A DNA stretch of 64,000 nucleotides, taken from Holophagales bacterium. GTDB lineage: Bacteria > Acidobacteriota > Thermoanaerobaculia > Multivoradales > Multivoraceae. Every line of letters starts with the position of its first letter. Within the stretch, counting starts at the first letter, position 1. Where the stretch lies: assembly GCA_009843505.1 (NCBI GenBank), contig VYDI01000031.1:1-64000 (forward strand), written 5' to 3'. This document shows, one piece after another, positions 34,111 through 39,349 of this stretch. The position numbers and the translations under genes are program-made. A model generated the notes under the pieces. That model was not told where the DNA came from. It worked only from the letters and a program-made list of their open reading frames with translations, and searched no databases.

Positions 34111-34186
34111 GCCCAGGTAGCTCAGTTGGTAGAGCACCTGACTGAAAATCAGGGTGTCGGTGGTTCGAATCCGCCCCTGGGCACCA
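34111..34186 (+). tRNA. tRNA-Phe (GAA)
   Basis: A 76-nt cloverleaf: acceptor GCCCAGG/CCTGGGC, D-arm GCTCAGTTGGTAGAGC, anticodon loop CTGAAAA on a CCTGA/TCAGG stem (anticodon GAA), T-arm GGTTCGAATCC, CCA encoded at 34184-34186. Confidence 0.97.
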
Positions 34187-34372
34187 TGTACGCGACCCCG
34201 GCCAACGACTCCGTTCCGGGTCGCCGGCGCGGGGAACTCCGAGAATCCGCAGCAATTCCGCAGTGGCTTCCAGAGGTTCCCAACCGGAAGTGGGACGCTG
34301 CAACTGACGGCAAAGAAAAACGGTTACGGCCGAACCGGGAGACTCCTCCCGCTACCGGCGAGATACACCGTC

Positions 34373-34402
34373 TTGACACACCCTTCATACGGCCTGTACG
34401 TT
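34373..34402 (+). promoter_or_regulatory. promoter of the large ncRNA
   Basis: Consensus -35 TTGACA (34373-34378), 18-base spacer, -10 TACGTT (34397-34402). The expected start near 34409 coincides with the first base of the RNA's closing helix. It is the best sigma-70 -35 I noticed in the window. Confidence 0.7.
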
Positions 34403-34408
34403 GTTTCG

Positions 34409-35046
34409 CGGATAGGGACTGTGACCAAGAATCGCATCCTGATCCACCGGTCCTGAGACGCGACCTTCGGATCGGAGCCTGAGAAGGGCGAAAGTCACGT
34501 TCGCGTGGTGGGCGCCCCTTGAAGGCGAAGGTTGGAGGGTCACGACTCGGAAGCCGGGCTCGGCGGCAGGGGCCGCTGGGAATTCGGGGACCCGGAGGCG
34601 CAAGCCAAAGGAGAACCAGATTCCACGCGAACCTTAGGTTCCTTGGGCCCCAGTCATCGAGTGGCTCCCGTGGCCGACAGTCTTCCCGGGAGCGGCGCCG
34701 AAGGGCGAAAGCCGGACGGAGGCGCAACTGGGGAGACGGCTTCAGGGAAGCGGACGGCTGGAAGTTGCCCGGCAGCAACGAAAGGTCGACCGGCAACTGA
34801 AGCGCTTCAGTCGGTAGACCCTGCGGGGGCTTCGTCGTGAGACCCGACCAGTCGAGCGACGGAGTGCCCCGGAGGCGTCAGGTCGGCAGAAGCCAGGCTT
34901 CGGCGAGCCGTCCGGCTAGGTGGCGCGCTCGCGCTCCAGGATCCATGCCCGCCAAGCTGTAGAGGTCCGGGAGATGCGAACGGCAGGGTGAGAGGCTGAG
35001 GTCGATTCGGGTGAGATTCCTGAAGCGGTCCCTATCCTCTTTTTTT
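34409..35046 (+). ncRNA. candidate large structured non-coding RNA (about 640 nt), unknown class
   Basis: No protein is credible here on either strand, yet the stretch behaves as one transcription unit: promoter at 34373-34402, U-run at 35040-35046. Its ends pair perfectly over 10 bp, GGATAGGGAC (34410-34419) with GTCCCTATCC (35028-35037), extended by three more pairs including wobbles, and the U-run follows 2 bases later. Inside: GTTCGCGTGG (34499-34508) / CCACGCGAAC (34623-34632), 10 bp; AGCCGGACGG (34710-34719) / CCGTCCGGCT (34908-34917), 10 bp; GCTCCCG (34664-34670) / CGGGAGC (34687-34693); AGTTGCC (34763-34769) / GGCAACT (34792-34798); CCGGG (34554-34558) / CCCGG (34591-34595) enclosing a GCGGC-AGGG-GCCGC hairpin; and GGC-GAAA-GCC (34704-34713). 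I do not see tmRNA (no CCA end or tag), RNase P (no GGAAAGTCC core) or SRP motifs. Confidence 0.7.
35028..35046 (+). terminator. terminator of the large ncRNA
   Basis: The 3' strand of the closing helix (35028-35037) is followed by TC and seven T. A second possible closing stem, AGAGG (34991-34995) with CCTCT (35036-35040), abuts the T run and could act as the terminator hairpin. Confidence 0.6.
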
Positions 35047-35366
35047 GCCCGGCGGAAACCTAGCACGGTACGCCCGTAAGTGCAACCCCGCCAGTAACTT
35101 ACAGGCACCGACCAGGGCAGGTCAGGCCCGCCGCCGGCACGAACGGCCGGCCGCCGGGACCTGTCGTCGGCCGAGAGACATGCATGGGCGGGCACGCTCG
35201 TCCGCGGTCAGACACTGGTCAGCCAAGCGTCACGCATCGGCTGGATTGCTCGGACCGTAGTGTCCTTTAGAGTTATCGAAAACTCGGGGTCCGGTGCCGC
35301 GATCGCGGCGGCCGGGATCCCCGCGCAGGGAACCTCCGCACCACGTAGCAGTCGAGAAACCAGCCC
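35047..35366. other. 320-base gap with a small inverted repeat only
   Basis: No convincing gene. Contains the inverted repeat GTAAGT (35076-35081) / ACTTAC (35097-35102) with a 15-base loop, just after the ncRNA terminator, and GC-rich sequence leading to the ToxR-like gene. I see no clear promoter for that gene. Confidence 0.5.
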
Positions 35367-36359
35367 ATGCAGCGCGGTAACGGCACGTCGCAAGAGGCAG
35401 CGCCCAGGCGCCGCAGGGGCCGGGGCGCCGCCAGCGGCCGGTCGCGCCGCCTGCGGTTCGGCAACTTCGAGTTCGACCCCGAGACGCTCGAGCTGCACGG
35501 CGACAGAGAGACGATTCGGCTCCAGCCCCAGCCGGCCAAGCTGCTTCACCTGCTGATCGCCAGTCGCGGCGCCGTCGTATCGCGCGACGCCGTTCGGCGT
35601 CACCTCTGGCCCGACGAAATCCACGTCGAGTTCGACCAGAGCATGAACTCCTGCGTCAAGCGGATTCGCGTGGCGCTCGGGGACAACGCGGAGGCTCCCC
35701 GCTACATCGAGACACTTCCCCGGATCGGCTATCGATTCCTGCAACCCGTGCTGGAAGTCCGCGACGGTGGTCCGCCGCTCCCGCCCGCGCGGGCGGCGCC
35801 AACCGCCCCGAACCCCCGTGCGCGGTCGCGACGGATAGCGGCCGCGGTGCTTGCGGCGGTGGTCGGCGCCGTTGGCATCATCCTCACGGTCCTGGTCTGG
35901 CATGACCTGGATTCCCGGCCCGGCACCGCCGACGAGGCGCCGCGTCAGGTGCTGGCGGTCCTGCCCTTCGCCGCCCTCGAGAACTGGACCGGCGCCGAGC
36001 CCTTCCGCCAGGCCCTGGCCCAGGAACTCATCACTTCCATCGCCCGCCAGGGTTCGCAGAACCTCGCGGTCGTGGCCCAGGACGCCGGGCCCGACGAGGA
36101 GACCGACGTGCCGGTGCCCGGTGTCAACGCCGACTTCGTCCTCGACGGTCGCGTTCAGCTCGAACAGGGCAGGCTCCGGGTGTGGGCGCGCCTCCTGCTC
36201 GCGAAGGACGGCACCGTGCTGTGGACCGAGGCCTACGACGGCGCCGAGGACGAGATCCTCGTCTTCCAGACCGAGGTGAGCGCGCGGATCGGCGACGCCG
36301 TCCTGGGCCGGTTGGCGCAACTCGTCGAGCCACCCGCGGCTCGGCAACGGCAGAGCTAG
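35367..36359 (+). CDS. ToxR/CadC-type membrane-anchored transcriptional regulator
   Basis: A 330-residue protein. Basic tail, then an OmpR/PhoB-type winged helix (about residues 28-130: LRFGNFEFDPETLELHGD, RHLWPDEIHVEFDQSMNSCVKRIR, YIETLPRIGYRFL), a single TM helix (AAAVLAAVVGAVGIILTVLVW, about 155-176), and an extracytoplasmic domain (VLAVLPFAALENWTG, ELITSIARQG, DFVLDGRVQLEQGRL) like the TolB-N/FlgO-like sensor domains of many such regulators. It would bind DNA while sensing a periplasmic signal. It is the first gene after the large ncRNA, but no link is shown. Overlaps convergent aat by 4 bases. Confidence 0.88.
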   Translation: MQRGNGTSQEAAPRRRRGRGAASGRSRRLRFGNFEFDPETLELHGDRETIRLQPQPAKLLHLLIASRGAVVSRDAVRRHLWPDEIHVEFDQSMNSCVKRIRVALGDNAEAPRYIETLPRIGYRFLQPVLEVRDGGPPLPPARAAPTAPNPRARSRRIAAAVLAAVVGAVGIILTVLVWHDLDSRPGTADEAPRQVLAVLPFAALENWTGAEPFRQALAQELITSIARQGSQNLAVVAQDAGPDEETDVPVPGVNADFVLDGRVQLEQGRLRVWARLLLAKDGTVLWTEAYDGAEDEILVFQTEVSARIGDAVLGRLAQLVEPPAARQRQS

Positions 36360-37054
36360 CAGTCGCGCCAGGAACCGGAGCGACCCGGCAGGCCGACGGC
36401 CGCCGCCAGTTCACTGAGGAAACGCGGCCGCGCGACCTCGTCGGCCCCGAACCGGAGGAGATGCTCGGTGACCTGCTGGCAATCGATGAACGCGAAACCC
36501 CAGTTCCGAAGACGGTCGACCAGATGAACCAGGGCGACCTTGGACGCGTTCGAACGCCGCGCGAACATCGACTCGCCGAAGAACGCGCCGCCGACGGCGA
36601 CCCCGTAGAGACCGCCGGCCAGCTCGCCGTCCGCGAAGCACTCGACCGAGTGAGCGAAGCCCCGGCGGTGCAGGCGATCGAAGGCATCGATCAGGGGCCG
36701 GGTGATCCAGGTGCCAGGCCTGCCCGGACGGTCCTCGGCGCAGGCGGTCATAACGTCCCGGAAGCACGCGTCGACCGTGACCTCGAAGCGGCTCTGCCGC
36801 AGCTCCTTGCGGAGGCTGCGCGAGACCCGGAACCGGTCCGGATAGAGCACCAGCCGCGGGTCGGGCGAGAACCAGAGCATGGGGCCGTCGACTCCCAGCA
36901 GCGGCCAGGGAAAGATGCCCGCCCGGTACGCCGCCAGCACGCGCTCCGGTTCGAGGTCGCCGCCCACCGCCAGCAGGCCGCTCGGATCAGCCAGCTCCGG
37001 TGGCGGAAAGTCCAGGCTCCGCTCGTCGAGCAGGAAGGGGCCCCGCCGGTTCAC
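36356..37054 (-). CDS. aat: leucyl/phenylalanyl-tRNA-protein transferase
   Basis: A 232-residue protein. FPPPELADPSGLLAVGGDL, YRAGIFPWPLL, WFSPDPRLVL, GESMFARRSNASKVALVHL and FIDCQQVTEHL are the family signatures. Adds Leu or Phe to N-terminal Lys/Arg, marking proteins for ClpAP in the N-end rule pathway. GTG start at 37054 has TAACCT 7 bases upstream and no Shine-Dalgarno. Confidence 0.95.
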   Translation of the reverse strand: MNRRGPFLLDERSLDFPPPELADPSGLLAVGGDLEPERVLAAYRAGIFPWPLLGVDGPMLWFSPDPRLVLYPDRFRVSRSLRKELRQSRFEVTVDACFRDVMTACAEDRPGRPGTWITRPLIDAFDRLHRRGFAHSVECFADGELAGGLYGVAVGGAFFGESMFARRSNASKVALVHLVDRLRNWGFAFIDCQQVTEHLLRFGADEVARPRFLSELAAAVGLPGRSGSWRDC

Positions 37055-38170: not shown

Positions 38171-39349
38171 TCAGACGCCGGCGCCGAAGTTGGCGGCGAG
38201 GATGGCCAGGTCCTCACCGTCGACCTGGCCGCTGCCGTCGACGTCGGCGTCGGCGTCGTAGCGCCGCGACCTCGCGCCGGCGCCGAACGCCAGGCCGAGG
38301 CGGACCAGATCCGAGCCGGTGACCCGTCCGTCCCCGTCCACGTCGCCCGGCGGTACGACCGCACCGTAGACCTGGAAGCGCCCGAGCAACCGGTTGTAGA
38401 CGTTCCCGTGCAGGTCCCACGCACGGAGGGTCATCGTGACCACCCCGCTCAGCGGGACAGGCGGCTTGTAGCTCCACAGCAGGCTTCGCCCATCCTCGTC
38501 CGCAACGGGAGCCGGCGCCGGCGCCCCGCCGACCACGAGGCTTGTCGACCCTTCCACGATGCCGCTGCCGAAGTCCCTCATCTCCACTTCCACCGTGGCT
38601 TCGGCCGGGACCTGACTCGCGCCGTGCGCCGGCACCAGTCGGGTCGGCACAGGCGGCACGGTATCGGTCGCCAGCAGGGCGTCCGCGAAAACCCTCGCCA
38701 GCAGGTCGTAGCCCGGTCCGTTCGGGTGACCCACAGGGTCCTCCTCGCCCGCGTAGTAGTACTCGCTGAAGAGCCGCGGCCGGGTGCTGAACACTTCAAA
38801 CGGATCGACCAGGCCGCGGCCATGTTCCGCGGCCAGCCGCCGGATCGCCTGCACGAGGTCCTGGTTCTCCACGTTGTTCGGGTCGAAACGGGCATTCTGC
38901 AGGCGGGGAATCAACGTCGAGTGGTACGGCGTCCGGCCGGCCTCGGTCGCCCGCGAGGCCATCCGGTCCAGGTTGAACAGGGTCGTCTCCGGCGAGATTC
39001 CGCGGCTGATGTCGTTCGTGCCTTCCATCAGCAGCAGGCAGTCGCCGGGTTCGGCGAGCACCCCGTCGATACGCGCGAGTCCCTCCGGCGTCCGTTCGGC
39101 GCCCACGCCGCGGTTGTCGACGACAAGCCCGGGAACGAGGTTCTCCAGGCGTGGCGGGTAGCCGGGCGTTTCCCGCCCCGGATCGTCGCCCACGCCGGCC
39201 GTGATGCTGTCGCCGAACGCCTTGCAGCGGGTCGGGGTCTGCGCCGTTGCCGCGCCGGCGAAGACGAACGCGAGGACAGCGGCGGCGGCGGCCAGCCGGA
39301 GCGCCCGCGAGGCGCCGCCAGGGGGCCCGATGAGGTAGTTACCGGCCAA
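38171..39349 (-). CDS. secreted SGNH/GDSL hydrolase with C-terminal dockerin
   Basis: A 392-residue protein. Signal peptide ends near GAATAQT. SGNH domain: block I CKAFGDSITAG (nucleophile Ser), Asn in the MEGTND block, and a late His in DPVGHPNGPGYDLLA. A beta-sandwich linker (PPVPTRLVPAHGASQVP, then a CHU-like strand set) leads to a type I dockerin: two calcium loops, DVDGDGRVTGSDLVRLG and DADVDGSGQVDGEDLAIL. Likely an extracellular esterase acting on glycans or lipids. A TTG start at 39349 is assumed because no ATG/GTG precedes the signal peptide in frame. Confidence 0.88.
   Translation of the reverse strand: MAGNYLIGPPGGASRALRLAAAAAVLAFVFAGAATAQTPTRCKAFGDSITAGVGDDPGRETPGYPPRLENLVPGLVVDNRGVGAERTPEGLARIDGVLAEPGDCLLLMEGTNDISRGISPETTLFNLDRMASRATEAGRTPYHSTLIPRLQNARFDPNNVENQDLVQAIRRLAAEHGRGLVDPFEVFSTRPRLFSEYYYAGEEDPVGHPNGPGYDLLARVFADALLATDTVPPVPTRLVPAHGASQVPAEATVEVEMRDFGSGIVEGSTSLVVGGAPAPAPVADEDGRSLLWSYKPPVPLSGVVTMTLRAWDLHGNVYNRLLGRFQVYGAVVPPGDVDGDGRVTGSDLVRLGLAFGAGARSRRYDADADVDGSGQVDGEDLAILAANFGAGV

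Follow-up and report, generated by a model that had tools for sequence, protein, structure and literature searches.

A large structured non-coding RNA gene beside tRNA-Phe, a probable new family in one genus of Acidobacteriota

The window analysed here, a stretch of 64,000 nucleotides from a Holophagales bacterium, carries on its forward strand at 34410-35046 a self-contained RNA gene, with a promoter region, a helix joining the two ends and a T-run, and without a conserved reading frame. The preferred reading, to which a probability of roughly 78% is given, is that this is a chromosomal gene, present in a single copy and dedicated to a new family of large structured non-coding RNA found in one genus; a scaffold role is the mechanism proposed within it. 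The family and the fold are well supported by the comparison of 19 species. Evidence for the gene comes from the strength of its fold (z -6.5 against shuffled sequences), its 19 homologues, covariation, and the edges of conservation which coincide with its predicted boundaries.

Locus and boundaries

The tRNA-Phe gene (GAA), located by ARAGORN and synteny at 34111-34186 (+), lies outside the RNA and is its 5' neighbour in all 19 RNA-bearing genomes, the RNA beginning about 190-230 nt 3' of it. The promoter region is composed of a -35 hexamer TTGACA (34373-34378, +), which is the same in 18 of the homologues and TTGACT in one, and, after an 18-nt spacer, a -10 hexamer TACGTT (34397-34402, +) kept in all 19. 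A promoter of the form TTGACA-18-TACGTT had been part of the original prediction. The region is indeed conserved in every homologue despite a -10 element far from the consensus, but a consensus promoter scan makes no call there, because TACGTT matches TATAAT at only three of six positions.

The seven T at 35040-35046 (+), directly after the terminal helix P1, form the presumed terminator, and the homologues have at least four T at this place in all cases and at least six in most. The 5' end of the RNA (about 34409/34410) is set by promoter spacing and the conservation edge, and the 3' end is placed in the T-run. When the sequence was re-read, all the coordinates of the original prediction proved exact.

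The next gene 3' of the RNA encodes a Trans_reg_C regulator (35367-36359), the first aligned codon of which lies from about 220 to more than 700 nt 3' of the RNA depending on the species. With purH, aat and ychF nearby, the neighbourhood of the RNA gene is one of housekeeping genes. The regulator itself diverges fast, its best local alignments in the other of the two clades described below having 56-75% amino acid identity, while the RNA has a nucleotide identity of about 78%. The aat gene (36359-37054), encoding a Leu/Phe-tRNA-protein transferase with Phe-tRNA as a possible substrate, is close to both tRNA-Phe and the RNA, probably by coincidence. Further along, 38174-39349 encodes an esterase of the GDSL type that has a dockerin type I domain at its C-terminus.

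Distribution and conservation

A BLASTN search over 60 related genomes found strong relatives of the RNA within the same genus, in 18 of its 20 other genomes, and none in any other genus. Including the window's own, 19 species carry the RNA, as a single copy and at the same chromosomal place in every carrier, between tRNA-Phe and the same Trans_reg_C gene. Of the short BLAST matches elsewhere in the genome, among them one in C33 and one in C10, which were considered as a possible second copy, that in C33 was rejected as it lies inside the reading frame of an ATPase-like gene. All 19 units start with GGATAGGGACTGT and end with CGGTCCCTATC(C/T)TC followed by the T-run. The RNA is not essential everywhere in the genus, because one complete, one-contig genome (G019; L133 8034-9600) does without it: tRNA-Phe and the regulator are kept there, and the spacer is unrelated and holds no trace of the RNA. 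In a PurH tree this genome has a long branch and is grouped, with modest support, with two members of the five-species clade, and loss and late gain are hence indistinguishable. The absence of the RNA from another genome (G012) is uninformative, since its assembly has no tRNA-Phe and the contig with purH stops 2.5 kb further along.

The carriers fall into two clades of 14 and 5 species. Among the 14 species of the larger clade the identity of the RNA is 93.9%, whereas the spacer preceding the promoter has 70.8% and the 100 bases that follow the T-run have 76.9%; across the two clades the figures are 78.1% for the RNA and 49-57% for the spacers. Hence, conservation goes up at the promoter and drops beyond the T-run, and, judged by these identities, selection is acting on the putative transcript unit. 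Gaps of 1, 2, 17, 78, 81 and 164-166 bases occur among the homologues, and those of 1, 2, 17 and 164 bases break every reading frame, which agrees with the prediction that the region encodes no credible protein.

The wider distribution was followed with an 18-base motif from an invariant hairpin and with two covariance models, R1 built on 34739-34870 and R2 on the 5' domain. The motif occurred in 26 stretches of a genome-contig collection, 16 of them with a strong R1 match (one being incomplete at the stretch edge). These 16 belong to MAGs labelled Acidobacteria, Acidobacteriota, Holophagales or Thermoanaerobaculia, one of them 'Candidatus Multivorans thiocomprendens', and the other ten are without a strong R1 match and look like chance. 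NCBI taxonomy places Candidatus Multivorans in Acidobacteriota, Thermoanaerobaculia, Candidatus Multivoradales. The carriers, being 'Candidatus Multivorans'-type Acidobacteriota, are presumably sponge symbionts. R1, run on 72 genomes of the order and 396 of the phylum, found only this genus, and so did R2, run on 149 genomes of the class and, with laxer filters, on 30 chosen genomes; stray matches of the two models at 22-28 bits are at chance level for so many genomes. Likewise, nine tRNA-Phe-adjacent loci of other genera, read by eye, hold no comparable unit.

Architecture of the RNA

The predicted fold is closed by the terminal helix P1, the 5' strand of which (34410-34422, +) pairs with 35025-35037 and is nearly invariant, with 100% of cells paired. 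The complementarity of GGATAGGGAC (34410-34419) to GTCCCTATCC (35028-35037), on which the original prediction was centred, is present in the sequence. The terminal helix is conserved (190 of 190 cells paired), but its length is 13 bp and not the 10 bp proposed. The 5' strand of P2 follows (34423-34440, +) and pairs with 34985-35003 in 97% of cells. The 5' domain (34444-34551, +), comprising the 5' strand of P3 and helices P4-P7, is mostly invariant in the 19 species and is the source of R2. The adjoining segment (34553-34662, +) contains the 5' strand of P8 and the arm P9-P12, which ends in a GCAA-capped hairpin, CGGAGGCGCAAGCCAAAGGAG, and shows compensatory changes in P9. In the alignment, a 17-nt insertion within it (34628-34644, +) is present only in the window's species and in L010. 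The insertion contains CCTTAGG and is absent in 17 relatives, some of them closer by overall identity, a pattern that suggests exchange or repeated gain.

The central domain P13-P20 (34663-34909, +) consists of the GAAA-capped P14-P16, P17-P19 and a long P20 arm bearing a GA/GA internal loop and an invariant CCGACCA loop, with compensatory changes in P14, P15, P16, P18 and P19. The loop of P19 has a palindromic CCGG, with which a symmetric kissing loop is conceivable, and this motif is common by chance. The consensus fold is completed by the 3' strands of P8 and P3 (34912-34923, +), the 3' arm P30-P31 (34926-34982, +) with compensatory changes in P30, and the segment 34985-35037 (+), which holds the P2 3' strand, hairpin P32 (35006-35024) and the P1 3' strand (35025-35037). 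A 9-bp pairing of 34506-34514 with 34946-34954, paired in 170 of 171 cells, cannot form together with P7 and P31. It could represent the true pairing, a switch or a tertiary contact; with so little variation at these positions, the alignment gives no choice between it and P7/P31.

The homologues range from 611 to 858 nt in length, varying mainly through one insertable domain. The long forms (691-858 nt) carry it at the point matching 34910/34911 (+) of the window, where the alignment, the L015 fold and repeats place about 80-245 nt with GNRA hairpins in other species; in the L015 fold the domain is structured. Its hairpins resemble the P10-P12 arm. For example, L010 has CGGAGGCGCAAGCCAA in identical form at the two sites, and L018 and L019 contain three similar copies of a P10-P12-like hairpin, which suggests that the RNA grew by copying GNRA-capped arms. 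Hairpins with GNRA loops, some of which had been noted at the outset, number 5 in the 630-nt form, where 1.2 are expected, and 14 in the 854-nt form, where 1.6 are expected; the expected numbers overall are about 1.2-1.9.

Fold strength and covariation

The minimum free energy of the + strand is -335.2 kcal/mol, whereas dinucleotide shuffles have -286.5 +/- 7.5 kcal/mol (z -6.5), far below the shuffles as would befit the predicted structured RNA; the antisense (-) strand has a z of -2.8. The original prediction also named three perfect 10-bp helices, and all three inverted repeats (34410/35028, 34499/34623 and 34710/34908) are present in the unit, against a mean of 0.44 and a maximum of 4 in 100 shuffles. 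As shuffles reach up to four, inverted repeats alone are weak evidence and the comparison with relatives decides. By that comparison only the terminal 34410/35028 helix is conserved: the 3' arm of 34499/34623 lies inside the 17-nt insertion, the origin of this helix, and is thus present in two of the 19 species, and 34710/34908 is fully formed only in the window's own species.

RNAalifold with RIBOSUM scoring gave 32 helices for the 19 sequences. By a second tool, 95.9% of cells are paired in the consensus fold against 33-44% in slid controls, a comparison which favours the fold in that it was derived from the same alignment on which it was scored. Two-sided changes were counted at 18 pairs and in 53 cells, against 10.2 +/- 2.0 and 17.3 +/- 3.9 with shuffled partners (0 of 500 reaching either) and at most 6 pairs and 14 cells in slid controls; as many of them separate the two clades, a single deep split (14 versus 5 species) underlies the covariation in large part and the independent events are fewer than the cells. 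Among the helices concerned are P5, P9, P14-P16, P18, P19 and P30, together with three of the extra domain. P1 and P2 hardly vary: they are conserved, yet covariation gives no test of them. Two-sided changes were found in helices other than those originally named, of which the terminal one is invariant and the other two are not conserved. A systematic search for extra covarying helices yielded no new one with strong support. Folded by itself, the L015 homologue (854 nt, 79% identity) reproduces essentially this P1-P20 layout, with a z of -5.45. On this alignment the predicted fold is conserved over 22% sequence divergence with compensatory changes.

Search for known families and mobile elements

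In Rfam 15, the unit at the gathering threshold and the region 34190-35360 at E<=10 gave only chance-level scores apart from the tRNA, and no known class was matched at either setting. Similarly, the homologous loci L010, L015 and L018 had no match except tRNA at E<=0.5. These results, together with the homologues showing compensatory changes, bear out the prediction of a large structured RNA gene of unknown class, comparable in size to OLE, ROOL or GOLLD. Hallmarks of tmRNA, RNase P and SRP had been stated from the beginning to be lacking; tmRNA and RNase P RNA are indeed without an Rfam match at this locus, and both genes are found elsewhere in the genome, RNase P RNA at C21:39612-40027 (233.6 bits) and tmRNA at C31:152669-153015 (139.7 bits). 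BLASTN against phage and plasmid collections produced no match, nor did a scan of viral contigs for three invariant motifs. No description of this RNA was found in the literature searched.

Proposed function and rival explanations

Once folded, the putative transcript would be a compact and long-lived particle, with P1 and P2 closing it. Its GNRA-capped arms may dock within the molecule, onto other copies or onto proteins, and the RNA would serve, as OLE, ROOL and GOLLD do, as a scaffold; pairing with mRNAs or a leader function for the following gene would not be its way of working. By analogy with ROOL and GOLLD, the domain inserted at 34910/34911 would be a linker that tolerates change, either peripheral or interior. 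The scaffold reading is put forward because the size, the closed ends, the GNRA-rich arms, the single length-variable domain and the lack of a protein frame recall these three RNAs; given a real RNA gene, a scaffold or particle function has about an even chance. Transcription, abundance, partners and oligomeric state are inferred. A bolder version, rather unlikely on the present analysis, would have the RNA form a host-encoded, RNA-only particle, homo-oligomeric and possibly hollow, as a fourth ornate assembly besides OLE, ROOL and GOLLD; such a particle would be chromosomal and not of phage, and enlarged in some species by copied GNRA-capped arms.

The main rival is regulation in trans, in which the RNA would bind mRNAs or a regulatory protein, in the manner of 6S or a CsrB-type sponge, with the fold as a stable carrier. 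A free-standing unit with its own promoter region and T-run is what such a regulator would have, and binding sites could lie in nearly invariant stretches such as the CCGACCA loop and a large part of the first 140 nt. However, conservation tracks the global fold and covariation is found in many arms, which exceeds the needs of a sponge or an antisense RNA, and the repeats seen are capped hairpins and not short single-stranded protein-binding motifs; we regard this explanation as unlikely. A highly diverged member of OLE, ROOL or GOLLD, or a ribozyme or intron core missed by the Rfam models, would fit the size range, the tRNA adjacency, the GNRA richness and the variable domain (PMC12286853). 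Against this stand the Rfam scores of the window and of the three homologous loci, the lack of any match in the phage collection or, for the three invariant motifs, in viral contigs, and a single-copy gene in a constant place among housekeeping neighbours, which make it very unlikely.

The position of the RNA, always between tRNA-Phe and the Trans_reg_C gene, invites the thought of a cis element, either a long 3' extension of tRNA-Phe or a leader or attenuator of the gene at 35367. The RNA has, however, a conserved promoter region of its own, 187 nt beyond the tRNA, and its T-run ends 320 nt before the gene; the distance to the regulator varies widely among species, and the genome without the RNA keeps both neighbours, all of which leaves a cis role barely credible. 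GC-rich sequence folds easily and open frames of 100-200 codons are present in the region, but the fold energy relative to dinucleotide shuffles, the covariation, the conservation edges and the lack of a conserved frame refute, for practical purposes, both a coding region and a structure that arose by chance in GC-rich intergenic DNA.

The family is new to Rfam 15 and is host-chromosomal, not phage-borne, and no such report was found for the phylum in the literature searched. Few bacterial RNAs of more than 600 nt have a complex fold that is conserved. The 19-species alignment includes both long and short natural forms; it reveals which arms the RNA can do without and offers ready constructs for structure work; the complete relative without the RNA is a natural comparison for its role.

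Comparison with known large RNAs

RNase P RNA and tmRNA are likewise large, structured and independently transcribed bacterial RNAs, and their models (RF00010 and RF00023) have no match at this locus. OLE, about 600 nt long and among the most structured bacterial ncRNAs (PMC12054373), is alike in size and degree of structure. It differs in being mostly of Bacillota, and there is no Rfam match to OLE here. OLE forms a membrane-bound complex with partner proteins; the neighbours of the present gene are purH, Trans_reg_C, aat and ychF.

OLE is a dimer, and ROOL and GOLLD are cages, assembled via kissing loops and A-minor contacts, the variable linker of ROOL and GOLLD being kept inside the cage (PMC12286853). 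GOLLD is often longer than 800 nt, lies near tRNAs and has a variable linker between two conserved parts (PMC12286853). Compared through its Rfam model and description rather than arm by arm, it resembles the present RNA in size and tRNA adjacency, and the length-variable domain at 34910/34911, which is structured, may correspond to its linker; it differs in its phage and prophage carriage near tRNAs, the RNA here having no Rfam and no phage or viral match. ROOL (Rumen-Originating, Ornate, Large), of which the solved one has 659 nt, is found near tRNA genes and has a multi-arm fold with a variable linker (PMC12286853). It shares with the present RNA a similar size, the tRNA adjacency, an elaborate multi-arm fold and a variable part. 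ROOL is phage- or prophage-borne, often near tRNA islands, whereas here a single tRNA and a housekeeping context are seen in 19 genomes, with no phage match and no Rfam match. The cage that ROOL forms is a homo-octamer of RNA. With the large structured ncRNAs as a class, the gene has in common a free-standing unit, a conserved complex fold with covariation, and the lack of a reading frame.
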